A DNA stretch of 21,412 nt. Source: a virus. Positions 43-15,007 of this stretch are shown here, piece after piece (positions within the stretch are counted from its first letter, which is position 1; each line of letters opens with the position of its first letter). The position numbers and the translations under genes are program-made. The stretch lies in IMG/VR virus record IMGVR_UViG_3300031111_000146, positions 1 through 21,412 of that record. One strand, 5' to 3'. The notes beneath the pieces were generated by a model. The model searched no databases. It was not told the DNA's origin and saw only the letters and a program-made list of their open reading frames with translations.

Positions 43-1785
43 TTACTTGTCGATGGACTTCGGCACGACCGCTACCTGCGCCACGACATACCCTCCTGCA
101 GGCAACCCCTCTAGTTGAGCAAACGAATACTGATCGACGTTCTTCGTCTGCCAGTCAGTCGTCGGCTTTAGGATCTTGTACGGCTCAGAACCCGCAACAG
201 ATGTCGAGACTGCTTCAAAGATCAACTGAGTCGCCGTGTTGGCAATGATCTCCCTCGTCGCGTCTTCCCCCCCACGAGTTCCACCCAGTTGGACGTAGTC
301 GCCAATGAACTCGTGCGGCACCCAGCTCTTGGACGAATCAGTCAAGGAGTCTGCTGTGCCAGAGTCTGCTGTGCCAGAATCATCCAATCTGCATTGTCGA
401 TACTTGACTCTGTAGCCCTTCGTCCGCCAGTCCCTAATTCCCGCCCATCGGACATGAAGAATCGGCACCGTGCTGCCGTCTTCGGCCTCTTTCCATAGCC
501 CCTCAGCGTCCAGTTTGTTTGGGGCATTGGCAGTCGCCCCGCGAAGCTCCCTGTCTGCCTGATCCTGCTGACCAATCCAGTCAGTTCTCCCTTTCAGTAG
601 CCAGAACCGACGATTGCCAATGCGTGCATCCAGCGTCCCCGAAATCGTAGTTGAGCCAGGACCTCCAGGCTCAATCCGATGACGAATCCCAGTCACTCCC
701 ACCTTCACCGTTTCCGAATGAGAGGTGAACTGAATCAAGTCCCCGCCCTCAATGTTCAAGCACAGCCACGGAATGTGAATCTCTACGCCGGGGCATGGCT
801 TCGATACATCGTGCAACGCCTTCTCGCAGGCGTCCATGGCCTCAGCACGGGTGTCGATGACGGATAGGTCCTTCTCGACAATCCGCATGTACTTGTGCAG
901 CCGGTTCCCATTGCCATCTGGGATGCCGTAGAGGGCCTTCGCACTGGCGTCTGCACATTGGACGCTTGCCTGCTTGCCCGTCGTCCTATCCTTATAGACC
1001 CACCGGATCTTCGTCCTGATGTTGGCTTCGGTGTAGCGGGTTCGAATGATGCGGAAGTTGCCAGCCAGATCAGCATCGGCATTCGTGTCATCCCGCATCG
1101 GATCAACTACCGTAGGGCGGAACTCCGAGTTCGTGCTGTTCCACTTCCACATCAACACAAAGCCAATCGAGTTGACGGGATTCGAGACAGCGTCCAAGAT
1201 GTTCGTGTCGCCCATCTCGTAGTGGTACAAGTAGTAGTTCGGGTTGTCCTCTACGATGATGTTCTTCGCGTGCCCGTAGTGCCCCAGGATCGTATTGAGA
1301 CAGTTCGTCCCTGTAGAGAGCGTTACGTCGCCAAGCGTCCAGCCCTCAAGCTCCTTGTCAATCCAGTGGTCAGCCCAGGGCTGCATCCCGTCGACACAGG
1401 AGCATCTGAGGACATCATCCATCTCGACATCCTCAACACCTTCAATGTCAGAAGGGCCGACATAGCCCTCAAACATTGTCGCTCCAGTGCCGTCTTTGGC
1501 TATGTCGATCTGGACGTTGTGATACGCTCCGAGCAGAGGAACGCTGCCAGTATTATAACTGGAAGTATGCCCTGGATCAAGGCTGAGATTGTTGTCTCTG
1601 AAATACTGATGGTTAGCGATGTCTAGCTCTGCTGTCCACCGTCCCGAGTCATGAGAGTAGTCCAGTGAGCAGCCAAGGACGCGCCCACCTGTGAGCGATG
1701 TCCAAGAGACACCGTAGTCAGTCGATACCTTGAAGCTGAAGGATGTGACGTTGGTGCAATCGTTTCCGTTGGCGATCGAGCGCAT
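43..1785 (-). CDS. Baseplate/tail-tip hub protein with interrupted FN3-like C-terminus (580 aa)
   Basis: This is probably a structural protein of the tail tip, acting as hub or adaptor at the distal end of the tail tube. Residues 1 to about 410 are beta-rich and end in a pattern typical of phage hub proteins: an alanine-rich helix (DACEKAL), then a beta stretch with IEGGDLIQFTSHSETVKVGV and STTISGTL. Residues about 430-580 look like an FN3-type domain (HVRWAG, GYRVKYR, then YVVAQVAVV) split by a module at about 470-537 that begins with the repeated peptide DSGTADSGTADS. I start it at ATG 1785, which shares one base with the tape-measure stop (TAATG). An upstream GTG-type start at 1809 would overlap that gene further. 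Coming directly after the tape measure fits Dit, Tal or hub proteins; I cannot separate these from sequence alone. Confidence 0.6.
   Translation of the reverse strand: MRSIANGNDCTNVTSFSFKVSTDYGVSWTSLTGGRVLGCSLDYSHDSGRWTAELDIANHQYFRDNNLSLDPGHTSSYNTGSVPLLGAYHNVQIDIAKDGTGATMFEGYVGPSDIEGVEDVEMDDVLRCSCVDGMQPWADHWIDKELEGWTLGDVTLSTGTNCLNTILGHYGHAKNIIVEDNPNYYLYHYEMGDTNILDAVSNPVNSIGFVLMWKWNSTNSEFRPTVVDPMRDDTNADADLAGNFRIIRTRYTEANIRTKIRWVYKDRTTGKQASVQCADASAKALYGIPDGNGNRLHKYMRIVEKDLSVIDTRAEAMDACEKALHDVSKPCPGVEIHIPWLCLNIEGGDLIQFTSHSETVKVGVTGIRHRIEPGGPGSTTISGTLDARIGNRRFWLLKGRTDWIGQQDQADRELRGATANAPNKLDAEGLWKEAEDGSTVPILHVRWAGIRDWRTKGYRVKYRQCRLDDSGTADSGTADSLTDSSKSWVPHEFIGDYVQLGGTRGGEDATREIIANTATQLIFEAVSTSVAGSEPYKILKPTTDWQTKNVDQYSFAQLEGLPAGGYVVAQVAVVPKSIDK
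347..378 (-). repeat. Perfect 15-base tandem duplication inside the hub gene
   Basis: The unit agtctgctgtgccag (plus strand) occurs twice in succession, at 348-362 and 363-377, with one matching base on each side. It keeps the frame and encodes the repeated peptide SGTAD at the left border of the module that interrupts the FN3-like domain. Confidence 0.85.
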
Positions 1786-4700
1786 TAGTAGGCCCCTGCC
1801 AGTTCCCAACCCGAGCCAATGTTGCCCTGTGCGTCTCTGCGTTTGACTGCGGAATGGATCTCGCGACCGTCAAGGTAATGCTTGTTGATGATGACAATGG
1901 GAGTGCGCCGATAATCGTAACCAACGCCAGCCTCGGCTTGCGCGGGCCGAAGATCGGGCATCGAGAGGCGTCCAACCTTCTCGCCCTCATGGACAACAGC
2001 AAGGCCAGATTTCGCCACTTCCCACCACTCGCCCGGTTCGGTTTCCAAGTATGGAACCTTGGGGATATTCACAAATGGGATGAGATTCACAACCGAGATC
2101 AAGGCATTGAATACCCAGATGATGGCGTTTACAACCCCCTTGATGAACTCGTTTGCCAAGGACCCAATGGTGCCACCAAGCTTCTGCCAGAAAGTCGTGC
2201 TCTCCGTCATCCAAAGCACACCCAGCTTTTCCCAGAAGGAAAGCGACTCGGATGAGAAGATCGCATCCATGGTCGCGGCGCTATCGCCTGCTCCATCCAG
2301 AAGCTTGATCTTGGCCAGTTCGCCGCCCTTTCGCAGTTTCTCAACGAAGCCATCGAGCGCGGCTTGCAGCTGATTCTTGAGAAAAGCACTGATTGTCGGC
2401 CAGTTTTGCTGTACCCATGCCGCCCACTCTTCCAACATCGGCCTGATCGCTGTATCCCAGGTCGACTTGACGATGCTGAATAGCTCTCTCAGTAGCGGCA
2501 TAACCTTCGGCCCCAGAAACTCAACCAGTTCCTTCAGCTTCTGCCAGAGGAACTCCGCGACCTCGCGCAAAAAGACAAAGACCTCGCTCTGCAGGAAGGG
2601 GTCCATTTCAGTCGACCACCACTCACCGAACGCCTTGAAGAACTTCACAAGGTCATCGCGCTTTGACCAGATGAAGGAAGCAATGCCGCCAACCGCTGCT
2701 CCGAACGTCTCAAGAATCGGAGTAACCGCCGAGAAGATTGCGCCGATGAGCCCGGCCAGTTCGTCCTTGTTCTCAATGATCCAGTCGGTTGCCACAATCA
2801 CTGCATCGACAAACTTGTTGATGACCCACAGGAACCCCTCGACAATTCCCGGCCCCACTTCGGCCCAGAACTCTTCCATCTTCTGGCCGAGGCTGATGAT
2901 CTTTGCCTTCAGCGCCTCAATCTCAAGGCCGAACTGGCCGAGGAGAAGCGTGACCCATGTGACCTTTTCTTCGGCTTCTTTCTCCTCATCCTCTTCTGCG
3001 CCAGGGAAGATAGGAGGCTGGTCAGGGATGGATGCCCAGTGACGAATCCTGTCGTACTTCCAGCCCACAGGGACATTCAGATTGGAGAGGCGAGCCGTTG
3101 TCTTCGAGATCTCCTTCGTAACCTTCTTGACCTCATCCTCTACGTGGAACAACTCCTTGAGAATCGCAGCAATCGGACCAAGGAAGCCGAACAGGATGTT
3201 CGCCAGCCACTTCGTCATCTCTGCAAGATACGACTGGATGTCGGCGTAGTACTCGCTCTTCTTGGCGAGATCCCAGATAGCACTAGCCGCCCTCCAGGCA
3301 TAGTCAGCCAGCGTCTTGAGAGCCTCCCAGACTGTCTGCGCCATCTGCTTCAGCTCTTCGAGGCGCTCCTGGAACTTCTCCTTGATGTCGCGGAAGATGG
3401 AGGCGATGGTGTCAATGACGCCAGCAATGCCGCCATAGATGTTCCCAGAAGCGAAGGCTGCCGCAGCTCCTGCCGCACCGCTTACATAGCCCGCCATCTT
3501 TGGCATTCCAAGAGCATCAAGAGCAGACGAGATCACCTGGCCGATTCCCGTGATGTGGTGCGCCCAGTCGATTACCTCTGCCTCAGCATCACCAAGCGCT
3601 TCCTTGAACATTTGAAGCGCTTCTTCGGCTTCCTCGGTCTCTTCTGCCATTCCCGGCAAGGCGGACATCGAACTGATGATGTTCTCGATGAACCCGTAGA
3701 AGCCGCCCTTGAGTGCCTGGTAGCGCTCCATCATCTCAGCATCGCCAATCGACTGCTCTGCTAGACGGCGGAAGTTGCCAAGGATCGTCTCGAAATCGCC
3801 AGAGAGGAAGAGGTTCGCTTGTGTCCGGCCGAAGTCTTCCCACATCCTCTCCATGGCCTCTTCAGTGGCCTGCTCGCCTGCTTCAAGCATGTCCTGGATT
3901 TCTTCAGGGGTTTTGCCAAGCACGCCAAGCAGATCATCCAGAGCCGTTTGAAACTCTCCGGCATAGTCTGCCTGATTCAATTGGTAAGCGATGTCGCGTC
4001 CTTGCTGCAACGCCGACTGGATGGCAGAGATGCTGCTGCCCGCAGCGAGGAGGTCTGGAATATCTAGGGTTCCGGCAGTCGCGCGCGAGATGATCTGGTG
4101 GGCTTGGGAAAGCGCATCACTCGGACGAAGTGGTTCTTCAAGGTCGTCCAGAAACTCTTGGAATGCCGATTTCAGTTCCTCAAGTCCTCCGACAAGTCCA
4201 AGAATCGCTGTGATGACTGACTGGATGGCAGAATCTGCGCCTAGGCCCGCATCCTTGAGGTCCTCTTGCGCTTGAGTTGCTTCACGATAGAGAGTCTTCA
4301 GCCCAGAAACTGCTTCAGCCTTCTCTTCAGCAGACTTAGCAGAGTCTGTCAAGACAGCACGCAGCTTCTCAAGACGCGAACTGAAGGTCTCGACGATAGT
4401 CCCCGCCCGTTTCAGCCCAGGGACAAGCTTCTCCATGTACGCAAAGAACTCGTCGAAGACACCCCCCGCCTCTGGATACTTCTCGCTGAGGGCAACGATC
4501 CGATCGAAGAAGCCTTGGATATTGGCAAGAGACGCATACCAATCAACGGTCTCAGCAGTCACCGCACCAAGGCCCTCTGCCATCTTGTCGAACTGCTCGT
4601 GAAGAGTGAGGTCCTGAATCTCCTCCTTGAGACCTCGAAGCGCTTTTTCGAATTCCTCGACCTCTTCTTCACTCTTCCCAAGAGCGCGATACCATTGAAT

Positions 4701-7700
4701 CGTATCCTGAATGGCTTGCTCAGTGTTCTTGCCGAATGCCTTGAGAACAGGGATAATGTCCTTGCCCTCATCAACCATCTTCTCCATGGCCTCGTAGAAG
4801 GCTTTCTGGATCTCTTCGCTTGATTCCAGGGCTTTCCCGTACTTGAAGATCTCAGCAATGAGCCCCTGGACTGTTGGCTGGCTCTCTGCAAGCAGGTCAA
4901 AGAACACACCAAACGTGTCCTCGAAGTCCTCGCCGCCGACAGCATCTAGCACTGCCTGCCACGCCTGAGCAAGGGCACTGACCTCCGCCGCCATCTCGCC
5001 AGCGTTCATGTCCTGTAGCTCGCGGACAAGAACGCCCATCTCCAGAAGAGGATCTAGTTCTAAGGCATTGCCTAAGCGGTATTTGAATTCCTCAGTAAGA
5101 CCAACTGCCTCGACGAGCTTCGAGACGAAACCCTCGCCTGCACTGCTAAAGGTTGCAGCAATGACGCCGAGGACCTCGTAGGCAGATAGCTCAAGGTTCT
5201 TCCTCGCTAGGTTGAGCGCGTCTGCAGTAACGTCAACAGCATGTTGCAGGCTGATCTCAGCGTTGCGAGCAGCAAGTGCAGCAAGCTCCTCCCCAAGCTG
5301 TTCCATGAGCCCCGGATCGGCTCCAGTGATTAGGGAACGAAGATTGAAGACATCAAAAGCCGCCCGCGAAGCCTCTCCCTCAGCGTCACGAAGCTTCTGG
5401 ATTTCTTCGGTAAGCCCGCCAACTTCAACAGCAGCAGCATGAGCACTGTCCCGCAAATGCCCCACGCCCAAGGGGTCTCCTGCGTAGAGCGCACGCAGGT
5501 CGCTGATTGCCAAACCAGTCTTGTCGTGCAGCCGCTCCAATGCCTTCTCAAAGCCGCCAAATGTCCCTGGATAGATTGTTTCTGGCAACGTGCCGCCTGA
5601 ACGAAGGAATTCTCCGATTGATGCTGACCCCATAACCGTTGCCACAGCAAGTTCGTCTGCTTCTTGTCGGGCTTTGACTATCGTTTCCAGAATGCCAGCG
5701 ATGTAGTCAGCAATGGAGGCCAGCGACCCAATAAAGCCCTCTGTGGCTGCCGCCGTGAAGTCGCGCCACGCCGTCTTCATGCGGTCGAACTTGAAGCTTG
5801 CCGCCTCTGCCTGCTTTTCAAACGCCTCTTCAGCCGTTCCTGCCGCCTGCGACATTCGTTCCAGGTCTAGTGCATATGCCTTAGCAGCAGTCGTAGCAAG
5901 GGGGAGAACCGCTGTCACCGCACGGACGTTGGTGAACAGGTTCTCCATCTTGAGGTTGTTCGCATCAGCATAGCGGCCGATGAGGCCAATCGCCTCGGCA
6001 AACCCTTGCGTCTCAATGAGGGCTCGCCCTGAGTCATATCCCAGAGCCAGGATAACCTTGGCAAGCTCTGTGCTGGGACGCAAGATCTGCATCATCGTCT
6101 GACGCAGGGATGTGATTGCCCAGTCCGTTGCAATGCCCTGGCGAGTAAGGGTAGCGATAGCAGCAGTCATCTCGTGGATGGCTGCACCGGCTGGAGCTGC
6201 CACTCCGGCGAGGCGGCCGAACTGGCTACTCAATTCTGACATGGTTGTATTGTGGGCAACGATGTCTTCCGCAATGAAGTTCTGGTGGATGGGGACTTCT
6301 AGGTCGTAGACTTTCTCGCGCCCAATGTCTTCAATGGATACGATCTTGTCGTATTCGACAATCCCACGAGCTGCCCTTTGATGCTGCGGCGTATGAGAGA
6401 CAACTTCTCCTACGCCTTTGCGGTCAATACCAATACGATCCACAAATCGGCGCACATCGGCATAGCGGTGTGTTTCCCAACACCAGGCATTGACGGACTT
6501 CCTGCGCCTTACGGTCCCGACAATTCCGAACCTGAGCAATAGATGCGACACATCTCTGACTAGTCGTTCCGAGGAAGACACAAATCCTACTTCAAATCCA
6601 CTGCCAGTTCTCGATCCCCTCTTATCGTAGAGCCAGCCGTCTCCATTAAAGAGCCACCGGAGCAACACAGCGACGGAGGATTCGCTCCATGTGAATGCTT
6701 CCTCTGGAATATGCTTCTTGGAAGCAGGACAGTCATCAAGCCCGAGGCCGCGCAAGAAATCCATTGCGGGATTCTTGCCTGTAAACCGATTCTCAATACC
6801 ACGAGAGATCGAATAGGTGGGGGCTTTGTCGTTGTTGTGGTTCTTGTTCCTGGCCTGGCATCCGAAGTGTTCCGCCCATTCGGCAACTTCGCGCCCATAG
6901 GTAGTGGTCGTAATTTCTGGTGTCTTAGAACGGCCCGTTCCCTCAGCCAGCCACAGTCCAAGGAATGCAGCTTCCCCTTCGGGAACATGAACGTCGCCGA
7001 AGAAAGGAAGATCTGTCGGCACTGCAATCTTGTCGCCAACAGCCAGATCGGAAACCTTCTTCCACCCGGATTCCGTCAGGTAGGGATGATTCCAGGTCGT
7101 CTTGATGGATCGGCCCAGGCGTGTTCCGAGCCGGACGATTGGCTTCTCGCCCATTTCGACCCAGTGAGACTCCATCGGGACAAACGAGCGCCCCTCGAAC
7201 GAGACAATACGTTCGCCGCCCTCCATCTCGTCGATGCGTTTGTATCGCCCATCTGCAAGCAAGACGCGGGTGTCGCCCGTGACGCACTTGCCGAACTTGA
7301 TAGTAGTGAACAGCAAATCATTGATATGTGCAGTTTCTGTTGCCTGGAGACCCCAAGCATTCAAAACCGTGGTCAACATATCGCTGACCTGGAAGACATC
7401 AGCCAGCCCTGCCGAAGCACCCTTCAGACCCTGCTCAAGGATCTCCATGGCGTCAGCGCCATAGAACGTCGCTGAGTAGATCTGATAGAGGGCAGCAGTG
7501 GCCTGAGACCCCAGGACAGGGAATTCCATGGCCAACGAACGAATCTGGCCGCGCAGCATCTCCATCTGCGCCCAAGTGTTGTCAGTCAGCGTCCAGACGT
7601 TGTGGAGTTGCGTGTCGAACTCAATGGCAGCCTTCATCGCCGCCGAGAACTCCTGGCCAACCTTGCGAACCGCAACGGCCAGCCCCAGCCAGGGGGCGAC

Positions 7701-7904
7701 CTTCTTGACCGTGCCCCATAGGGGAGTGAACGACTTCGTAGTGGCAGCAGCGCCCTTCGTGACGACGCCCAGGCTCTTGCCGACCTGTTCCATCGACTTC
7801 TGCAATGGCATCATCGCCGCAGCGGCAGTAGATGCCCCTGCGGAGAACGTCTCGAAAAGTGCCTTGTAGTCTGATTGAATGCTTACAACAGTGCCGCCCG
7901 CCAT
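1785..7904 (-). CDS. Tape measure protein precursor containing an intein (2039 aa; 1693 aa after splicing)
   Basis: The tape measure protein sets tail length and is threaded through the tail tube. Residues about 85-206 and 553-750 together form the conserved phage minor tail (TP901-type) domain, with motifs such as FDTQLHNVW, AAALYQIYSA-like helices and GVAAPAGAAIHEMTAAIATL. Residues 207-552 are an intein that splits this domain. The rest is long helical, coiled-coil and hydrophobic sequence (for example IYGGIAGVIDTIASIF and VVNAIIWVFNALISVVNLI), and a typical C-terminal end containing YLDGREIHSAVKRR. By the usual rule of about 1.5 angstrom per residue, the spliced length would give a tail near 250 nm. 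ATG at 7904 has a GAGGAG ribosome site and follows the chaperone stop by one base. Confidence 0.93.
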   Translation of the reverse strand: MAGGTVVSIQSDYKALFETFSAGASTAAAAMMPLQKSMEQVGKSLGVVTKGAAATTKSFTPLWGTVKKVAPWLGLAVAVRKVGQEFSAAMKAAIEFDTQLHNVWTLTDNTWAQMEMLRGQIRSLAMEFPVLGSQATAALYQIYSATFYGADAMEILEQGLKGASAGLADVFQVSDMLTTVLNAWGLQATETAHINDLLFTTIKFGKCVTGDTRVLLADGRYKRIDEMEGGERIVSFEGRSFVPMESHWVEMGEKPIVRLGTRLGRSIKTTWNHPYLTESGWKKVSDLAVGDKIAVPTDLPFFGDVHVPEGEAAFLGLWLAEGTGRSKTPEITTTTYGREVAEWAEHFGCQARNKNHNNDKAPTYSISRGIENRFTGKNPAMDFLRGLGLDDCPASKKHIPEEAFTWSESSVAVLLRWLFNGDGWLYDKRGSRTGSGFEVGFVSSSERLVRDVSHLLLRFGIVGTVRRRKSVNAWCWETHRYADVRRFVDRIGIDRKGVGEVVSHTPQHQRAARGIVEYDKIVSIEDIGREKVYDLEVPIHQNFIAEDIVAHNTTMSELSSQFGRLAGVAAPAGAAIHEMTAAIATLTRQGIATDWAITSLRQTMMQILRPSTELAKVILALGYDSGRALIETQGFAEAIGLIGRYADANNLKMENLFTNVRAVTAVLPLATTAAKAYALDLERMSQAAGTAEEAFEKQAEAASFKFDRMKTAWRDFTAAATEGFIGSLASIADYIAGILETIVKARQEADELAVATVMGSASIGEFLRSGGTLPETIYPGTFGGFEKALERLHDKTGLAISDLRALYAGDPLGVGHLRDSAHAAAVEVGGLTEEIQKLRDAEGEASRAAFDVFNLRSLITGADPGLMEQLGEELAALAARNAEISLQHAVDVTADALNLARKNLELSAYEVLGVIAATFSSAGEGFVSKLVEAVGLTEEFKYRLGNALELDPLLEMGVLVRELQDMNAGEMAAEVSALAQAWQAVLDAVGGEDFEDTFGVFFDLLAESQPTVQGLIAEIFKYGKALESSEEIQKAFYEAMEKMVDEGKDIIPVLKAFGKNTEQAIQDTIQWYRALGKSEEEVEEFEKALRGLKEEIQDLTLHEQFDKMAEGLGAVTAETVDWYASLANIQGFFDRIVALSEKYPEAGGVFDEFFAYMEKLVPGLKRAGTIVETFSSRLEKLRAVLTDSAKSAEEKAEAVSGLKTLYREATQAQEDLKDAGLGADSAIQSVITAILGLVGGLEELKSAFQEFLDDLEEPLRPSDALSQAHQIISRATAGTLDIPDLLAAGSSISAIQSALQQGRDIAYQLNQADYAGEFQTALDDLLGVLGKTPEEIQDMLEAGEQATEEAMERMWEDFGRTQANLFLSGDFETILGNFRRLAEQSIGDAEMMERYQALKGGFYGFIENIISSMSALPGMAEETEEAEEALQMFKEALGDAEAEVIDWAHHITGIGQVISSALDALGMPKMAGYVSGAAGAAAAFASGNIYGGIAGVIDTIASIFRDIKEKFQERLEELKQMAQTVWEALKTLADYAWRAASAIWDLAKKSEYYADIQSYLAEMTKWLANILFGFLGPIAAILKELFHVEDEVKKVTKEISKTTARLSNLNVPVGWKYDRIRHWASIPDQPPIFPGAEEDEEKEAEEKVTWVTLLLGQFGLEIEALKAKIISLGQKMEEFWAEVGPGIVEGFLWVINKFVDAVIVATDWIIENKDELAGLIGAIFSAVTPILETFGAAVGGIASFIWSKRDDLVKFFKAFGEWWSTEMDPFLQSEVFVFLREVAEFLWQKLKELVEFLGPKVMPLLRELFSIVKSTWDTAIRPMLEEWAAWVQQNWPTISAFLKNQLQAALDGFVEKLRKGGELAKIKLLDGAGDSAATMDAIFSSESLSFWEKLGVLWMTESTTFWQKLGGTIGSLANEFIKGVVNAIIWVFNALISVVNLIPFVNIPKVPYLETEPGEWWEVAKSGLAVVHEGEKVGRLSMPDLRPAQAEAGVGYDYRRTPIVIINKHYLDGREIHSAVKRRDAQGNIGSGWELAGAY
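6249..7286 (-). mobile_element. Intein with LAGLIDADG (DOD) homing endonuclease in the tape measure protein
   Basis: The intein is 346 residues long, tape-measure residues 207-552. It starts with Cys207 in CVTGDTRVLL (block A). Block B has the TxxH motif in TTWNHPYL (Thr270, His273). Two endonuclease motifs follow: FLGLWLAEGT (acidic Glu321) and LLRWLFNGDGW (Asp422). Block F reads VYDLEVPIHQNFIAED and block G is VAHN followed by Thr553 as the +1 nucleophile. All splicing residues (Cys1, TxxH, His-Asn, +1 Thr) are present, so it should be a class 1 intein active in splicing. Both acidic endonuclease residues are kept, so the homing function may also be intact. Removal joins FTTIKFGK to TTMSELSSQFG, restoring a typical tape-measure helix. 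The gene is open through the whole insertion. Confidence 0.96.
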
Positions 7905-7905
7905 A

Positions 7906-8615
7906 CTACTCCTCGTTCAACGGGTGCTTATCACCGCGTTGCGCGGCGCGTTCTGCCCACTCCTTGGGTGTAATGTCGTGTGGCGATAGCCAGAAAGAGG
8001 GAGCTTTTGTGGGCTGCTTGCCCTTCTGAACCCCAGCAAAGGCTTCGTTCATGTAGATACGGGCGGAGCCGTACTCAATCTGAACGAACTGGGGAATGGC
8101 GTTGAGATAGAGAACTGCCTGGGGGAGGGTGAGATTCGCCACTTCTTCCCCAGACAGATGGAACCAAGCCTGAATCGCGGGGACCGCTAGTTCCCATCGG
8201 ATTCCGCCGACTTCCTCGCGTTTCCCGAACCACCTTCTTCGTCTTTGTCAGTTCCCGGTCGCTTGCCCGAAAGCGCAAACGAGAACACTTCGCCAAGCAG
8301 CACCGACGAGAACCCGCCCAGGCCGTAAGCGACCAAGTCGGATGTCTGCTCTCGCGTCAACTCCTTGACAATGTCATTCTTGCTCTTCTTCATCGACCTG
8401 TAAAGAACTTCCAGGAGCAACTCCGAATCGACGAAGTCCATCGCGCCCTTCGCGCGGAACATCTCCTGCGTCAGGTCCTTGCCGGTCTTCTTCTTGATCT
8501 CCGCATGTTCTGCCAGTGTCAGCGGCCAGAACTCAAATTCCTTCCCCCCAATTTCCTCAACAATCGGAGTCGGTCGAACCGAATCCAATACGGCCCCAAG
8601 ATCCCCCTTGCTCAT
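7906..8615 (-). CDS. Tail assembly chaperone GT, made by -1 frameshift (236 aa)
   Basis: This is the long form of the tail chaperone, analogous to lambda gpGT, which links tail-tube and tape-measure proteins during tail assembly and is absent from the virion. Ribosomes reading G slip back one base at GGGAAAC (8226-8220) and continue in the frame that stays open from 8247 down to the stop at 7906. The added 104 residues begin REEVGGIRWELAVPAIQAWF and continue through LSGEEVANLTLPQAVLYL, ending in PLNEE. The T part has no convincing start of its own; the first possible one is a GTG at 8142, well inside the conserved region. Its position just before the tape measure matches the family exactly. 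The frameshift is inferred from the motif and the overlapping frames. Confidence 0.85.
8187..8615 (-). CDS. Tail assembly chaperone G (142 aa)
   Basis: This is the short tail chaperone made when no frameshift occurs. It begins MSKGDLGAVLDSVRPTP, has a central FEFWPLTLAEHAEIKKKTGK motif common in phage tail chaperones, then helices ending near LGEVFSFALSGKRP, and a polar, glycine- and acid-rich tail that holds the slippery site. I chose ATG at 8615 because AGGGGTG lies a few bases upstream; a GTG at 8621 would leave no room for a ribosome site. It stops at TAG 8187, about 30 bases past the slip site. Confidence 0.87.
   Translation of the reverse strand: MSKGDLGAVLDSVRPTPIVEEIGGKEFEFWPLTLAEHAEIKKKTGKDLTQEMFRAKGAMDFVDSELLLEVLYRSMKKSKNDIVKELTREQTSDLVAYGLGGFSSVLLGEVFSFALSGKRPGTDKDEEGGSGNARKSAESDGN
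8220..8226 (-). promoter_or_regulatory. Programmed -1 ribosomal frameshift site GGGAAAC
   Basis: Read on the minus strand in the G frame, the codons are TCG GGA AAC, giving the heptamer G GGA AAC, a canonical X XXY YYZ slippery sequence. A -1 slip leads directly into the open T frame. An AAGGTGG stretch a few bases upstream resembles an internal Shine-Dalgarno stimulator, and short GC-rich stems can be drawn downstream. These helper elements are less certain than the heptamer. Confidence 0.88.
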
Positions 8616-8636
8616 ATTCACCCCTAGAGAATGCGG

Positions 8637-8659
8637 AGGGGCGAGGCTCCCTCGCCCCT
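8637..8659 (-). promoter_or_regulatory. GC-rich intergenic hairpin before chaperone gene
   Basis: A perfect 10-base-pair stem (plus-strand arms aggggcgagg and cctcgcccct) with a three-base loop fills the gap between the second tail-tube gene and G. Four more pairs (gcgg with ccgc) can form beyond a one-sided bulge. No T-run follows on the minus strand, so it is more likely an RNA processing, stability or attenuation element than a simple intrinsic terminator. Confidence 0.6.
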
Positions 8660-8669
8660 GTATCCGCGA

Positions 8670-9479
8670 TTAGTCTTCGATGTAGGCTATGTCGCCAGTA
8701 CCCTGCATCGTGATGTCTGCAGTAACCACTGCATCAACTGGCGTGCTGATACTGATCCCGTGGACATCAACCATGCCTTCCCAGCGCTTCCCGGTCATGT
8801 CAGAGTCGCTATCGATGTAGAACACACCGTAGATCTCCTCCGTGCCGGTCAACGCCTGGAACATGTCAGACGATGCCCAGTATTGACTTGCGCTTGCCGA
8901 CCATTGCTTCAAGCCGTCAATGAATTCCCGCCAGTCGCCAGCGCTTTCAAAGCACGTCACATCATGTGTGTCGTAGCTCACGTCTAGCGACCAGTTAGAG
9001 AACCCACCAACCTGCTCAAGACGGTAACATCGCACGTCATCGACGTAGATGTCCGAACCCGTACCAGCAATGAACGACGCCTTCAGCTGGCGCGTCCCCG
9101 TTGGAGTCGCCCGCCGAATCACGCTATAGCGCTTCCAACTTGAAGCCCCAGTCCCGATGGTGTCTGTCCCACTCGACAGCACAGACCCGCCAGAAGTCAG
9201 GAAACTCAGCTTGACGTAGGATGTCCCCGTAGGATCGGCACTGCCCGCCACTTTGCACATGGCACTCAGCACGTAGTACTGGTTGTAGACAGCTGTTCCC
9301 GTCTGAGACATCGTTGTAGCGCCAGTGACGAAGGCAGAACCCGTACCATCCCAACAGCCGGTCGTCTTTGCCTCGCCTTTTGTCCAGTTGGATACACCAG
9401 TCGCGAAACTCGCGTTGGAGAGTAGGCTAGAACCAGTTGTCTGGCTCCAGAAGGCCCCATCTTTACCCGAGAAGGCCAT
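8670..9479 (-). CDS. Tail-tube paralogue with inserted carbohydrate-binding-like domain (269 aa)
   Basis: This is probably a decorated form of the major tail (tube) protein. Residues about 1-15 and 156-269 match the shorter tail-tube protein encoded just before it; both share NWS(L/I)D, DWREF(I/L)DGLKQWS, PVD and a glycine-rich end. Between them lies an added region of about 135 residues (about 18-154; DNA 9428-9015). It starts NASFATGVSNWTKG and ends SDIYVDDVRCYRL, the opening and closing pattern of CBM4_9-like jelly-roll domains. ATG at 9479 has a strong AAGGAGG site. It may mix with the short form along the tail or replace it at specific positions. A tube role follows from homology to the neighbour; sugar binding is inference from the fold-like pattern. 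Confidence 0.8.
   Translation of the reverse strand: MAFSGKDGAFWSQTTGSSLLSNASFATGVSNWTKGEAKTTGCWDGTGSAFVTGATTMSQTGTAVYNQYYVLSAMCKVAGSADPTGTSYVKLSFLTSGGSVLSSGTDTIGTGASSWKRYSVIRRATPTGTRQLKASFIAGTGSDIYVDDVRCYRLEQVGGFSNWSLDVSYDTHDVTCFESAGDWREFIDGLKQWSASASQYWASSDMFQALTGTEEIYGVFYIDSDSDMTGKRWEGMVDVHGISISTPVDAVVTADITMQGTGDIAYIED
9015..9428 (-). other. CBM-like jelly-roll insert within tail-tube paralogue
   Basis: This segment encodes residues about 18-155 of the second tail-tube protein and has no counterpart in the first. It has NASF near its start, alternating short beta-strand segments (YYVLSAMCKV, YVKLSFLTSGG, WKRYSVI, QLKASFIAG) and a closing IYVDDVR. That layout is usual for carbohydrate-binding modules of the CBM4_9 superfamily. 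The ligand cannot be predicted. Confidence 0.65.
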
Positions 9480-9490
9480 GGGCTACCTCC

Positions 9491-9898
9491 TTAGCTGTAC
9501 GCCAGCGCGCCGTTGCCCTGGAACGTGAAGGAAACGTCTACAGATCCATCTACAGGCGCACTAACGCTTGTCGCGTGCGCGTAGACATCTCCGTAGAAGT
9601 AGTGAGTACCATCGACGTAGCATTCCAGTTCAAGTTTCGCTGGTGTCAAAAGTGCCGTGATGATCACTTGCTGACCGTTCGCGTCGGTGTCGTACTCCCA
9701 GTGCCCGTCAAAGCTTCCCGACCACTGCTTCAATCCATCAAGGAACTCTCGCCAGTCATCCGCACTGTCGAACGTGGTCACGTCGATCGTGTCGTAGCCG
9801 ATATCAATGGACCAGTTCTTGATCGCAGCAACGGTCTGGCAAGAACCCCCGCCATCCGTATCAATCTTGACATTGCCGCTCTTGCCAGCAAGTGCCAT
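9491..9898 (-). CDS. Major tail (tube) protein, short form (135 aa)
   Basis: This is probably the main tail-tube subunit. It is small and beta-rich, with KNWSIDIGYDTIDVTTFDSA near residues 27-46, DWREFLDGLKQWSG after that, and a C-terminal strand set ending SVDVSFTFQGNGALAYS. This pattern fits the TP901/lambda V-type tail-tube fold. It sits between the tail terminator and the chaperones, as expected for the tube gene. ATG at 9898 has a GGAGG site six bases upstream. It is closely related to the following 269-residue gene, which shares the same core, so this is a tandem duplication. No sheath gene is present, favouring a non-contractile tail. Confidence 0.82.
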   Translation of the reverse strand: MALAGKSGNVKIDTDGGGSCQTVAAIKNWSIDIGYDTIDVTTFDSADDWREFLDGLKQWSGSFDGHWEYDTDANGQQVIITALLTPAKLELECYVDGTHYFYGDVYAHATSVSAPVDGSVDVSFTFQGNGALAYS

Positions 9899-9907
9899 CG
9901 CTACCTC

Positions 9908-10384
9908 CTATGTCTTATCCAAGACGGCCTCGTAGCGCACACTGCAATACCACTCTTCCTTCTCGGTATCGAGATTCACACGCTTCAGTGGGCCGATTAC
10001 TGAGTTCCGGTTTGGCCGGGTCATCTCTCTGAGAGTCCAGCCATCAAGCGTCATCGAACAGCCGTCATAGACGGCCAATAGCTTTTCCATGGAATCTTCA
10101 AGCGCCGTCGACACTTTGTTCGTAGGCATCGACAAGCCCTTGAAGGTGATGAGGACAGTCTCTGAATCTGGAACTTGGTTGTTGTCGAACGTATAGTCTG
10201 CGTTGGACGAAACTACGTCGTAGATCCAGCCAGGCTTTGCCACATAGTCTGCGTCCGTATGCTCATCGAGCAGACCGCCGTGATCTAGGAATGCCGAGCC
10301 AGACTTGAACCCAGTCGCATCTACGTCGCGAAGACGCCAGATCTCGTACTTGACTTGTCTTCGAGGATCTCCACTGGCTGCCAT
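9908..10384 (-). CDS. Tail terminator/completion protein (158 aa)
   Basis: This is probably the tail terminator (lambda U-like) that caps the tail tube and joins it to the neck. The call rests mainly on position: between a gp10-like protein and the tail-tube gene. The mixed alpha/beta layout also fits, with an ETVLITFKGL strand, a helix around ALEDSMEKLLAVYDG, and a final strand ending WYCSVRYEAVLDKT. Its ATG shares one base with the previous stop (TAATG), so the two genes are translationally coupled. No catalytic motif is seen or expected. Confidence 0.6.
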   Translation of the reverse strand: MAASGDPRRQVKYEIWRLRDVDATGFKSGSAFLDHGGLLDEHTDADYVAKPGWIYDVVSSNADYTFDNNQVPDSETVLITFKGLSMPTNKVSTALEDSMEKLLAVYDGCSMTLDGWTLREMTRPNRNSVIGPLKRVNLDTEKEEWYCSVRYEAVLDKT

Positions 10385-12007: not shown

Positions 12008-15007
12008 CTAGTCCTCGTAAGTGACTTCGAACTCAACCGCCCAGGTAGGATTGTTGGTTGCTCCGGCGTCGTCCGTAATCAAGATGCCGACGATGTCGTC
12101 AGCGTCACACGCAATGGCTGTCGCAAGCGCAAACTTGTCGTTGAACTGCGAGGCAGCCCAAGACAATTCGGCTGAGAACGTCCCATCGGTGAAGTTGGCA
12201 ACTACGAACTTGATGATCTGATCGTGGACTGTTGCGCCCATGTCAGTAACCCGCACATCAACGATCTCGCACTTGTACGGAGCCTGCCAGGAATCCGTAG
12301 TAGGAATCCCAATGATAGGCTCGTCCTTATTCGTGCTGTCAATGAGTGGTGTTTGAGTTAGCTGCGCATCAGTAATCACATACTGAATCCAGTACGCCTC
12401 TTCGCCGTCGATGGTTCTGACTACCCAGTCCGACGGAGGCGCGAACGTGATCGTGCCAGTACGCTGAAGCGTCTGTGTTCCAGTTGTGGCGCCGGTCGAA
12501 GTGTTGTCGAATACGGTCAAGTCCGCCCACGAGGACGCACCGTCACTGTATTGCCACTTGCCGCCAGCGCCGCCCCACGTTGCCATCGCGCCAGTTCCGG
12601 TAGCCAGATCGTTGAAGGCTACATAGCAGAACTGCTCGTCGAATCCGATGGCAAATGCGTCATCTGCTTCCTCTGCGTCTGCATCAGGGAGAAGCTGGTA
12701 ATTGGCTGTCCAATCTGCCCCGGCCGACAACAGCGCTGACGTACTCAGATCGTCCCATGTAGTTGAAGTCTTGTCGTAGACCTTGCACAGAACGTCATTG
12801 TCGCCAGCCGCGCCGTCGTTGTAATCGTGCGTCGTGATGTCGACCGTTGAACCGACCATGCCGCCGCCGTTGGTAGCCGTACCGTCCGTATCTTCACCAA
12901 CCATCCCGCCAGCAAACGGCAAAATCGTAGTGAAGGTATTGGTCGTCAGAACGTCGGCTGTCGCATCCACAAAGTCAGGAATGGTAAGCGCAGCAGAGGC
13001 ATGGGTCTGGTTATCCGAGTCAACCGTCAGGTCAGCATCGCCATCATCGACGATGAACGAAGCGCCCTGTACGGACCCAGCAAACAAGACATTCCCACTG
13101 GCGACTTCCAGCGCATACGGCGCTGTGATCGTTACCGAGCCACCGGCAGCTGGTTCGCCTGCGATGTAAACCGTAGACGCCTTGGCGACCGTGACCGCAC
13201 TGGAATCAGTTTGCGTTGGTTGGCCGATGTACAACCCCATACCGCTCATATCCGTCACGCCGGTCGATCCCGTAAGGGTGGTCGTGCCAGGAGACAGGCT
13301 GAGCAATCTGTGAGTCGACCCGTTGGCCGCTGCAAACGTCGCTGGAGCACCAGTCAAGGTAACATTCGCCATCTGGTCCGTCGTTACACGAGAATCAACT
13401 TCAACGATCTTCGTAGTCCCGTCGTAAACCTCAAGCGCAGCATCGGTATCAGACTTGATAACGACATCAGTGGCAGCAGTCGCAACGTCCAACTCGCCGC
13501 CATCCAAGTCGAAATCACCGTCAATCTGAAGGTTGCCGCCCTGATCCAGGCTGGCCACTTCCGTTCCCTTGCCGTCAGGCAAGAAGGACAGCCGATAGTC
13601 CGTCGAAGTCTCGACATCGAGGAAGATCGACATGTCGTAGTCGGTCGTGGTGTCGTGGTCGTAGCCACTGAAGATCAGATAGCCGGAATCCTGATCGGAC
13701 CCGGTGGTCGTGTTATCGATAAGCAAGTCAAGCTGGGCTGCCCCAACCAATCCGATATTGCTCGCGGAGACCAACCCGTAGTCCCAGCCCGAACCAACGT
13801 CTAGCGCATGGGCCGTCTCTCCGCCTTCCTGTGTCATGGCACCAAAGCGAGCGCCGTAGATATTCAGGTTGGCATCGCCGTCCCCAATTGCCGCAACGTC
13901 GAACAGAACCAAGTTGTTCGTTCCTGCCGTCGCCGCACCAATCGTCGGATCGAAGTAGATTCCACGATAGGTTGACGCCACTCCCGTTCCATAGACTGGT
14001 GTGGTGAAACACATGTCAATCAAGTTGACCGTGTTGGCCACCGTGGGGATTCCCACTGTTGGATTGATGTCAAGGAAGATGCTTGTCGGAGTATTCGACG
14101 TATGTGCCGGAACCGTTCCAGAGATGGCCGTGTACGTTTTGCTGCTTCCAGCAGACTGGTCGGCACAATCAAGCGTGATTGTCCCGGCTGCGGTTGCGTT
14201 CGCAATCGTTCCGCCATCCACTGAGAACGTCGAGTCAATCTGCAACGCACCTGCACTTGTCAGATTAAAGACTTCTGTCTCATGGTTGTTGATTGTGAAG
14301 TCGTTGCCATTGGCTTCCGACTCAAGAATCCACGTATCCGTATTGTCGCCGCCCGCATCCGCATCTAGCGTCAGCGAAGCATCGCCCGTTGTATCGTGAT
14401 CGGAAGCGACAATCTGGAAATCGATTCCCGTATCGTCATCGCCTGTCAGAACTACATCTCCATCCGTCGAGTTGACAAGTGTTTCGTCATTCTCAAGGAT
14501 GAAGTCGTAGTTGTGCGCAATGGCCGTAGCCGAACCACCAGCAGTGATCTCAGGATCATCATCGTCTTCCCATCCGATGAACCAATAGGAATCCCCATCG
14601 TCATCTTCCGAGAAGAAAAATGGCTGCGTCTCGCCGTTGAAGTAACCGAAATCGGCATCCGTCGTAACAATGCCAAAACCAGGTACGTCCACTGCGCTAC
14701 CAGCAGGCATGTCAAGGATCAGGCAGTTTGCATTGGCGTCAGCCGTTGTCCACTCCAACGTAATTGGGCTGTCCGTGCCGAACCCGAGATCGAGATCGTC
14801 GTATACCTCCCAGTTTCCGCTGGAATCGATTAGTTCGACTTCGTTGCCGTAGGTGCCGACTGCCAACGAGTTGGAGAACGACAGGTCTGTGAACCGCGTG
14901 TACCCGCCAATCTCTTCCTCTGCAGGAGCAGTGTCCTGTAGAACCGCAAACCCAAGGAACCCAACAACAGCGGCAAGGACGAGGGTAGCAATCGTGTTGA
15001 AATTCAT
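12008..15007 (-). CDS. Large acidic fibre-like virion protein with N-terminal hydrophobic signal (999 aa)
   Basis: This is probably an exposed fibre or adhesin, perhaps attached to the head. Residues 6-23 are strongly hydrophobic (TLVLAAVVGFLGFAVL), followed by APA at 27-29 and an acidic stretch, which looks like a signal peptide or membrane anchor. The remainder is rich in Asp, Thr, Gly and Ala with repeated short beta stretches, such as LQIDGDFDLDGGELDV, typical of beta-helical or beta-prism fibres. Residues about 818-888 resemble a module found in many phage baseplate and fibre proteins (TFAPPSDWVVR, then GEEAYWIQYVITDAQL). ATG at 15007 has a GGAGG site. Its place directly after the capsid gene suggests a head fibre rather than a tail fibre. 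Family not identified; the signal is odd for a virion protein. Confidence 0.75.
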   Translation of the reverse strand: MNFNTIATLVLAAVVGFLGFAVLQDTAPAEEEIGGYTRFTDLSFSNSLAVGTYGNEVELIDSSGNWEVYDDLDLGFGTDSPITLEWTTADANANCLILDMPAGSAVDVPGFGIVTTDADFGYFNGETQPFFFSEDDDGDSYWFIGWEDDDDPEITAGGSATAIAHNYDFILENDETLVNSTDGDVVLTGDDDTGIDFQIVASDHDTTGDASLTLDADAGGDNTDTWILESEANGNDFTINNHETEVFNLTSAGALQIDSTFSVDGGTIANATAAGTITLDCADQSAGSSKTYTAISGTVPAHTSNTPTSIFLDINPTVGIPTVANTVNLIDMCFTTPVYGTGVASTYRGIYFDPTIGAATAGTNNLVLFDVAAIGDGDANLNIYGARFGAMTQEGGETAHALDVGSGWDYGLVSASNIGLVGAAQLDLLIDNTTTGSDQDSGYLIFSGYDHDTTTDYDMSIFLDVETSTDYRLSFLPDGKGTEVASLDQGGNLQIDGDFDLDGGELDVATAATDVVIKSDTDAALEVYDGTTKIVEVDSRVTTDQMANVTLTGAPATFAAANGSTHRLLSLSPGTTTLTGSTGVTDMSGMGLYIGQPTQTDSSAVTVAKASTVYIAGEPAAGGSVTITAPYALEVASGNVLFAGSVQGASFIVDDGDADLTVDSDNQTHASAALTIPDFVDATADVLTTNTFTTILPFAGGMVGEDTDGTATNGGGMVGSTVDITTHDYNDGAAGDNDVLCKVYDKTSTTWDDLSTSALLSAGADWTANYQLLPDADAEEADDAFAIGFDEQFCYVAFNDLATGTGAMATWGGAGGKWQYSDGASSWADLTVFDNTSTGATTGTQTLQRTGTITFAPPSDWVVRTIDGEEAYWIQYVITDAQLTQTPLIDSTNKDEPIIGIPTTDSWQAPYKCEIVDVRVTDMGATVHDQIIKFVVANFTDGTFSAELSWAASQFNDKFALATAIACDADDIVGILITDDAGATNNPTWAVEFEVTYED

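Follow-up and report, generated by a model that had tools for sequence, protein, structure and literature searches.

Domains on the outside of siphovirus tail tubes have been described for lambda, SPP1, T5, YSD1 and the lactococcal 936 phages, and reviews call their function unclear (PMC9022992). In lambda gpV and T5 pb6, the fold of the tail-tube protein (TTP) is extended by an external β-sandwich, a C-terminal Big_2 domain encoded in the single TTP gene (PMC8718954). SPP1 assembles one tube from plain and decorated subunits, gp17.1 and gp17.1*, which are made from one gene, the C-terminal FN3 domain of the latter being added through a +1 frameshift at a ratio of about 3:1 (PMC6316719). The lactococcal 936 phages decorate their tube with a carbohydrate-binding module (CBM), a C-terminal BppA-type module of the MTP-TpeX protein that is likewise produced by frameshift from one gene and whose binding to host cells was demonstrated by fluorescence (PMC6669499). 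In YSD1 and chi, domain 2 of YSD1_22 is Ig-like, lies on the exterior and is inserted within the fold of the sole TTP, after the helix (strands 4-5), where it stabilizes the ring (PMC7385642). Here we describe a further arrangement, found in a 21.4-kb viral record of IMG/VR (IMGVR_UViG_3300031111_000146; "the window" below is this whole stretch), in which siphovirus structural genes on the minus strand include two adjoining TTP genes, a plain one and a long one which carries an additional domain near its N-terminus.

The reading of this locus that we favor resembles SPP1 in that plain and decorated subunits would share one tube, but they would come from two open reading frames (ORFs), each with its own ribosome-binding site (RBS) and start codon, and the decorating, CBM-like domain lies between strands β1 and β2, the C-terminus of the long TTP being plain. 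This also separates it from lambda gpV and T5 pb6, with which it has in common a TTP fold bearing a predicted external β-sandwich, and from the C-terminal, frameshift-made module of MTP-TpeX. With YSD1_22 it shares an insertion within the TTP fold, probably on the exterior, but at another site, of another fold and in a second gene. The initial annotation of the locus had presented it as a different design. This stands for the separate tandem gene and for the site in an N-terminal loop: in the open-licence literature we found no earlier description of either or of their recurrence, which is weak evidence of novelty. It does not stand for sugar-binding decoration or for an insert away from the C-terminus, both of which were already known from the 936 phages (PMC6669499) and from YSD1 and chi (PMC7385642).

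Tandem tail-tube paralogues

The two adjacent genes do encode proteins with a common core, as had been proposed. Both products exceed the curated cut-off of PF06199 Phage_tail_2 (23.8 bits), with 29.9 bits for the long TTP and 42.1 bits for the plain one, both match phrog_1407 "major tail protein" (6.6e-12 and 5.4e-20, respectively), and BLASTP aligns them with each other at E 6e-24 and 36% identity across the core. Behind the insert, a profile of plain TTPs matches the core of the long form at E 4.7e-23 (hhalign probability 98.5%). Among solved structures the closest to the plain TTP by sequence is the undecorated tail tube of RcGTA, g9 (6tba, E 3.9e-8), and alignment to g9 locates in the TTP the stacking loop between β2 and β3. 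An AlphaFold2 model of the whole long protein was weak (predicted local distance difference test, pLDDT, 46), and its best Foldseek matches were the tubes of monocin, RcGTA and Sf11 (E about 5e-3). At the level of sequence, these comparisons confirm 8670-9479 and 9491-9898 as tandem TTP paralogues.

The long gene begins 11 bp downstream of the plain one, and its product opens with MAFSGKDGAFW where the plain TTP has MALAGKSGNVKI. Because an N-arm and β1 like those of the plain TTP precede them, the 134-138 extra residues (the initial annotation had counted about 135 in the N-terminal part) form an insertion between β1 and β2, and we rejected an N-terminal fusion. A frameshift product was also rejected, the long gene having its own RBS and start. 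Searches for close relatives of the long TTP by tblastn in phages (E<=0.1) and by a pattern scan of viral contigs found none; two scans of genome contigs gave no relative, and core-pair alignments used as scan queries gave no match.

Fold and position of the insert

The insert, of about 138 residues, has no counterpart in the plain TTP. It extends from LLSNASF (residues ~19-25) to DIYVDDVR (143-150), which agrees with the NASF start and DIYVDDVR end first recorded for it. Predicted in isolation by single-sequence AlphaFold2, it forms an all-β domain with a pLDDT of 56 and a predicted template-modelling score of 0.56, the pLDDT reaching about 70 over model residues 48-138. With this model, Foldseek ranked CBM16 (2zey, 2.4e-4) first in the PDB, ahead of CBM4 (1gui, 1.1e-3), CBM61, domains of phage tailspikes and further sugar-binding modules; among viral models, the top two were annotated CenC-like carbohydrate-binding proteins (5.4e-5 and 6.4e-5). 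Sequence profiles gave a different result: the insert had no match in Pfam at E<10 and none in NCBIfam, PF02018 (CBM_4_9) matched nothing in the window at E<=10, PHROGs returned only a giant protein of unknown function at 0.066, and hhalign against four CBM4 sequences gave a probability of 0.2%. The insert alone had no tblastn match at E<=10 in 50,697 phage records, and one irrelevant match to a plasmid. Of the checks suggested in the initial annotation, structure prediction thus returned a CBM-like domain for the isolated insert and a poor model for the whole protein, and the profile search against CBM families came back empty. The CBM4_9 likeness is probably right as to the fold, a jelly-roll of the CBM type that the model suggests with modest confidence; at the level of sequence profiles the insert falls outside the CBM16/CBM4 and CenC-like (CBM_4_9) modules.

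In the minimal TTP of RcGTA, g9, β1 belongs to the outer sheet and β2 to the inner barrel, and the loop connecting them touches the external Ig domain of lambda and, in the type VI secretion system of Vibrio cholerae, the outer sheath (PMC8718954). Because this loop meets exterior partners in both systems, a domain placed in it should face outward, and by the same analogy we infer an exterior position for the insert in the present virion.

Recurrence of the tandem layout

The same layout occurs in the Methanosarcinales virus vir515 with the related contigs L014 and L015, in L016, in L019/L020 and in L021-L023, always in the order plain TTP, long TTP, next gene and tape measure. In vir515 (BK063672) a paralogue of 332 aa, annotated "hypothetical", begins 15 bp after the plain TTP and has about 200 residues at the equivalent insertion site. 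The long TTP of L019/L020 has 321 aa. That of L016 (6001-7314) has 437 aa and contains two copies of a sheath-domain-II-like unit present once in close relatives, the inserted region having grown by duplication. In L021-L023 the long form (331 aa; L021 4932-5927, L022 1040-2035) has insertions both in the N-terminal loop and after the helix, and the second of these (residues about 190-285), in a stretch comparable to that of YSD1_22 domain 2, is sheath-like and matches a protein of the Methanosarcinales virus vir525 (H92). We considered vir525 as a further tandem case and rejected it, as it shares the sheath-type domain only, without the layout.

The profile of plain TTPs recovered the core of every long form (4.7e-23 to 2e-8). 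The inserts of different tandem lineages are unrelated, yet occupy an equivalent site; those of the vir515 group resemble tail-sheath and virion structural families (phrog_8757, 4e-8 to 6e-6; phrog_279, 1e-4) rather than CBMs. A tree of the cores, built on a short alignment and with moderate support, groups each TTP of the window with its own partner (0.92), likewise the L021 pair (0.91), and has vir515 and L019 share one older duplication. At least three separate TTP duplications are thus suggested; when the stacking loop is left out, the window pair ceases to group together. Judged from these alignments, the design is more general than a single window, since other viruses also have tandem TTP pairs, with unrelated inserts at one site, and the layout looks like a repeatedly invented way of decorating or customizing a viral tail. 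We tentatively propose, at not quite even odds, that bacterial and archaeal siphoviruses repeatedly evolved two-gene heteropolymeric tubes in which loop β1-β2 of the paralogue docks exchangeable exterior domains (CBM-like or sheath-domain-II-like, in single or double copy) and in which stacking loops that match and co-evolve hold the pair together. Should the recurrence be borne out, loop β1-β2 would be a natural tolerated site for exterior tail-tube domains.

Co-conservation of the stacking loop

The β2-β3 loop bears most of the contacts between rings, and the tubes of T5 and SPP1 no longer grow once it is removed (PMC8718954, PMC9022992). In the window, 21 of its 26 residues are identical in the two paralogues, against 28 of 79 elsewhere. 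Across four lineages the within-genome identity of the paralogues was 81, 60, 64 and 40% in the loop and 35, 29, 19 and 24% in the rest, whereas plain TTPs of different genomes (55 pairs) showed no excess in the loop (26%, against 28% in the rest). A sliding window of within-genome identity peaked at residues 37-60, and among 24 re-pairings the true pairing ranked first for the loop and tenth when the helix segment was compared. In L019, a member of the vir515 group, the loop of the long form groups with the plain form of L019 (0.81), whereas the remainder of the long form groups with those of vir515. Because the identity of the loop within genomes is far above that of the rest and no such excess exists between genomes, its co-conservation favors co-assembly of both paralogues in one tube, the simplest reading of the alignments being that both proteins must fit one socket of one tube. 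Gene conversion of the loop may also be involved and is a caveat to this reading of co-assembly.

Role of the long form

Our leading interpretation, with a probability of about one half, is that the product of the long gene is an additional, decorated subunit of the tail tube; a special ring, at the tip or at the neck, is estimated at a little over one third. In the decorated-subunit scheme, a duplicated TTP would have kept its stacking parts (N-arm, inner-barrel strands and β2-β3 loop) and gained a compact CBM-like β-sandwich in loop β1-β2, which connects the two sheets, outer and inner, and opens outward. Plain and long subunits, produced in some ratio from adjoining genes with near-identical RBSs, would co-polymerize around the tape measure, so that part of the tube would bear outward-facing domains, and these may establish weak multivalent contacts with host-surface or environmental glycans. 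Several points weigh against this scheme. The virus is uncultivated and known from its genes alone, and the model of the whole protein is poor. The bounds of the stacking loop were chosen with the alignment in view, and only four lineages were compared, two of which are sisters. Every long form has a remodelled helix segment (plain residues 61-92), with a within-genome identity of 0.11-0.14 compared with 0.28 between plain TTPs, so conservation of the tube contacts is incomplete. Sugar binding need not be the common function, since the other tandem lineages carry inserts that are not CBM-like. Finally, all five single-TTP phages compared (L004, L005, L006, L007 and L009) encode a distal tail protein (Dit) after the tape measure, whereas none is recognizable there in the three tandem lineages whose downstream sequence is known (the window, vir515 and the L021 lineage).

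Because of this last difference, the long form might be a specialized ring. It could be a dedicated Dit-like tip ring, a hexamer present once or twice per tail between tube and hub, with the insert as a peripheral glycan-binding domain as in the distal tail proteins of T5 and RcGTA. Dit itself is a TTP fold carrying an insertion domain, as in RcGTA g12 (PMC7296036), and the long form has the same composition; all long forms also remodel one shared helix segment. The protein directly after the tape measure is hub-like in the window (588 aa), in vir515 (611 aa; L024 6126-7961) and in the L021 lineage (637 aa; L025 2484-4397), and that of the window has no match to phrog_1302 or phrog_202; a hub-protein search in the other tandem records gave no match. 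The gene for g12, however, lies after the tape measure and belongs to a family with a separate profile, whereas the long gene precedes chaperone and tape measure, has an RBS and hairpin arrangement in common with the plain TTP, and matches only TTP families and none of the Dit profiles phrog_1302, phrog_202 and phrog_33, although the same library finds Dit in all five single-TTP phages. In addition, the loop that contacts the hub in a Dit is here the region in which long and plain TTPs are most alike, and the L021 lineage possesses an unassigned 394-aa protein which could be a divergent Dit. We hold the tip ring to be unlikely, though to be taken seriously; were it correct, it would show the origin of Dit-like rings from tube proteins. 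A ring at the opposite, head-proximal end of the tube, as a collar-like decoration beside the terminator, would explain why long and plain TTPs have the tip-facing stacking loop in common and differ at the surface of the helix segment, the pattern expected for a subunit seated on plain rings below and facing a different partner above. We regard this as improbable, as the helix segment may be remodelled merely to fit the insert and gene order offers no hint of such a position.

Other explanations leave the insert or the gene without a binding role. The precedent of YSD1 domain 2, an inserted Ig-like domain latching adjacent subunits (PMC7385642), and the sheath-domain-II-like rather than CBM-like inserts of the other tandem pairs make it conceivable that the insert chiefly stabilizes the ring. 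The chances of this appear slim: a stabilizer would be expected on every subunit and not in a second gene, and the best fold matches of the window insert are sugar-binding modules. That the long gene is a duplicate in decay, or one that is not expressed, is suggested by its divergence alone and is very improbable given its open frame, its strong RBS, a loop conserved at 81% while the rest fell to 35%, and a layout kept in several unrelated viruses. If the long form is a decorated subunit, the presence of plain and decorated forms in separate genes makes the function of tail-tube decoration directly testable, as either gene can be deleted or expressed by itself and their ratio adjusted, unlike in fixed fusions.

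Expression signals and neighboring genes

The RBS of the long gene is strong and is a near-identical copy of that of the plain gene (Table 1). Both TTP genes lie upstream of one GC-rich hairpin, which, like the copied RBS, speaks for the decorated-subunit scheme. A like hairpin (8671-8693) is found directly 3' of the single plain TTP of contig L010, the only relative found with the major capsid protein as bait (capsid protein 63% identical). The window and L010 hairpins fold at -28 and -19.3 kcal/mol (z of -2.2 and -3.1), respectively; no T run follows either, and they were not scored as terminators. This arrangement fits an addition of the long gene between TTP and hairpin, with the reserve that the L010 contig ends just after its plain TTP and a later long gene there is possible. 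The hairpin that follows the last TTP gene in both genomes is a possible attenuator or mRNA-end stabilizer between the tube and chaperone genes.

Table 1. Features of the tail-tube region and its flanking tail genes in the window
Feature	Position	Strand	Basis
Long TTP paralogue, 269 aa	8670..9479	-	PF06199, phrog_1407, BLASTP to plain TTP
N-arm and β1 of long TTP, residues 1-16, ahead of insert	9432..9479	-	alignment with plain N-terminus
Inserted domain, residues 17-154, probably CBM/jelly-roll-like	9018..9431	-	AlphaFold2 single-sequence model and Foldseek
TTP core of long paralogue after insert, about residues 155-269	8673..9017	-	TTP profile, hhalign
Stacking (β2-β3) loop of long TTP, residues 169-194	8898..8975	-	21/26 identical to plain loop
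RBS of long gene, AAGGAGGTAGCCC-ATG	9480..9499	-	sequence
Plain TTP, 135 aa	9491..9898	-	PF06199, phrog_1407, RcGTA tail tube 6tba E 3.9e-8
Stacking loop of plain TTP, residues 35-60	9719..9796	-	co-conserved within genomes
RBS of plain gene, ATAGGAGGTAGCG-ATG	9899-9911	-	sequence
GC-rich hairpin directly 3' of long gene	8633..8667	-	RNA folding
Probable tail terminator, upstream gene	9908..10384	-	position only
Probable tail assembly chaperone	8187..8621	-	gene order, after TTP genes and ahead of tape measure
Tape measure protein, 2039 aa including intein	1785..7904	-	phrog_991 1.3e-45; PF14890 7.5e-20
Hub-like protein, 588 aa, directly after tape measure	43..1809	-	PF13550 0.019 only

The gene series of the window comprises portal, Mu-F-like protein, protease/scaffold, two cement proteins, major capsid protein (PF25209), a 999-aa ORF, connector genes, plain TTP, long TTP, probable chaperone, tape measure and hub, of which portal, protease/scaffold, connector genes, chaperone and hub are named by position alone. 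Profile searches of PHROGs and Pfam gave no significant family for the probable chaperone and no family match for the probable terminator. The tape measure gene contains an intein of 346 aa (6249-7286, minus strand), running from Cys207 to Asn552, with Thr as the next residue, and containing a homing endonuclease of the LAGLIDADG type (PF14890, 7.5e-20; PF14528, 5.1e-12). Without it the tape measure has 1693 aa, which at the usual scaling of 0.15 nm of tail per residue would correspond to a tail of ~250 nm. The 999-aa ORF (12008-15007, minus strand), of unassigned function, lies between the capsid and connector genes and starts with a hydrophobic, signal-like segment; its 781-aa counterpart at the equal position in L010 (3856-6201) has a clearer signal-peptide-like start, and both contain the motif TxFTDLSFS. 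Lastly, the two cement genes (PF09956; 16151-16582 and 16595-17023, minus strand) adjoin each other and their products are identical at 95 of 143 aligned residues, so that this genome has a further virion protein duplicated in tandem.
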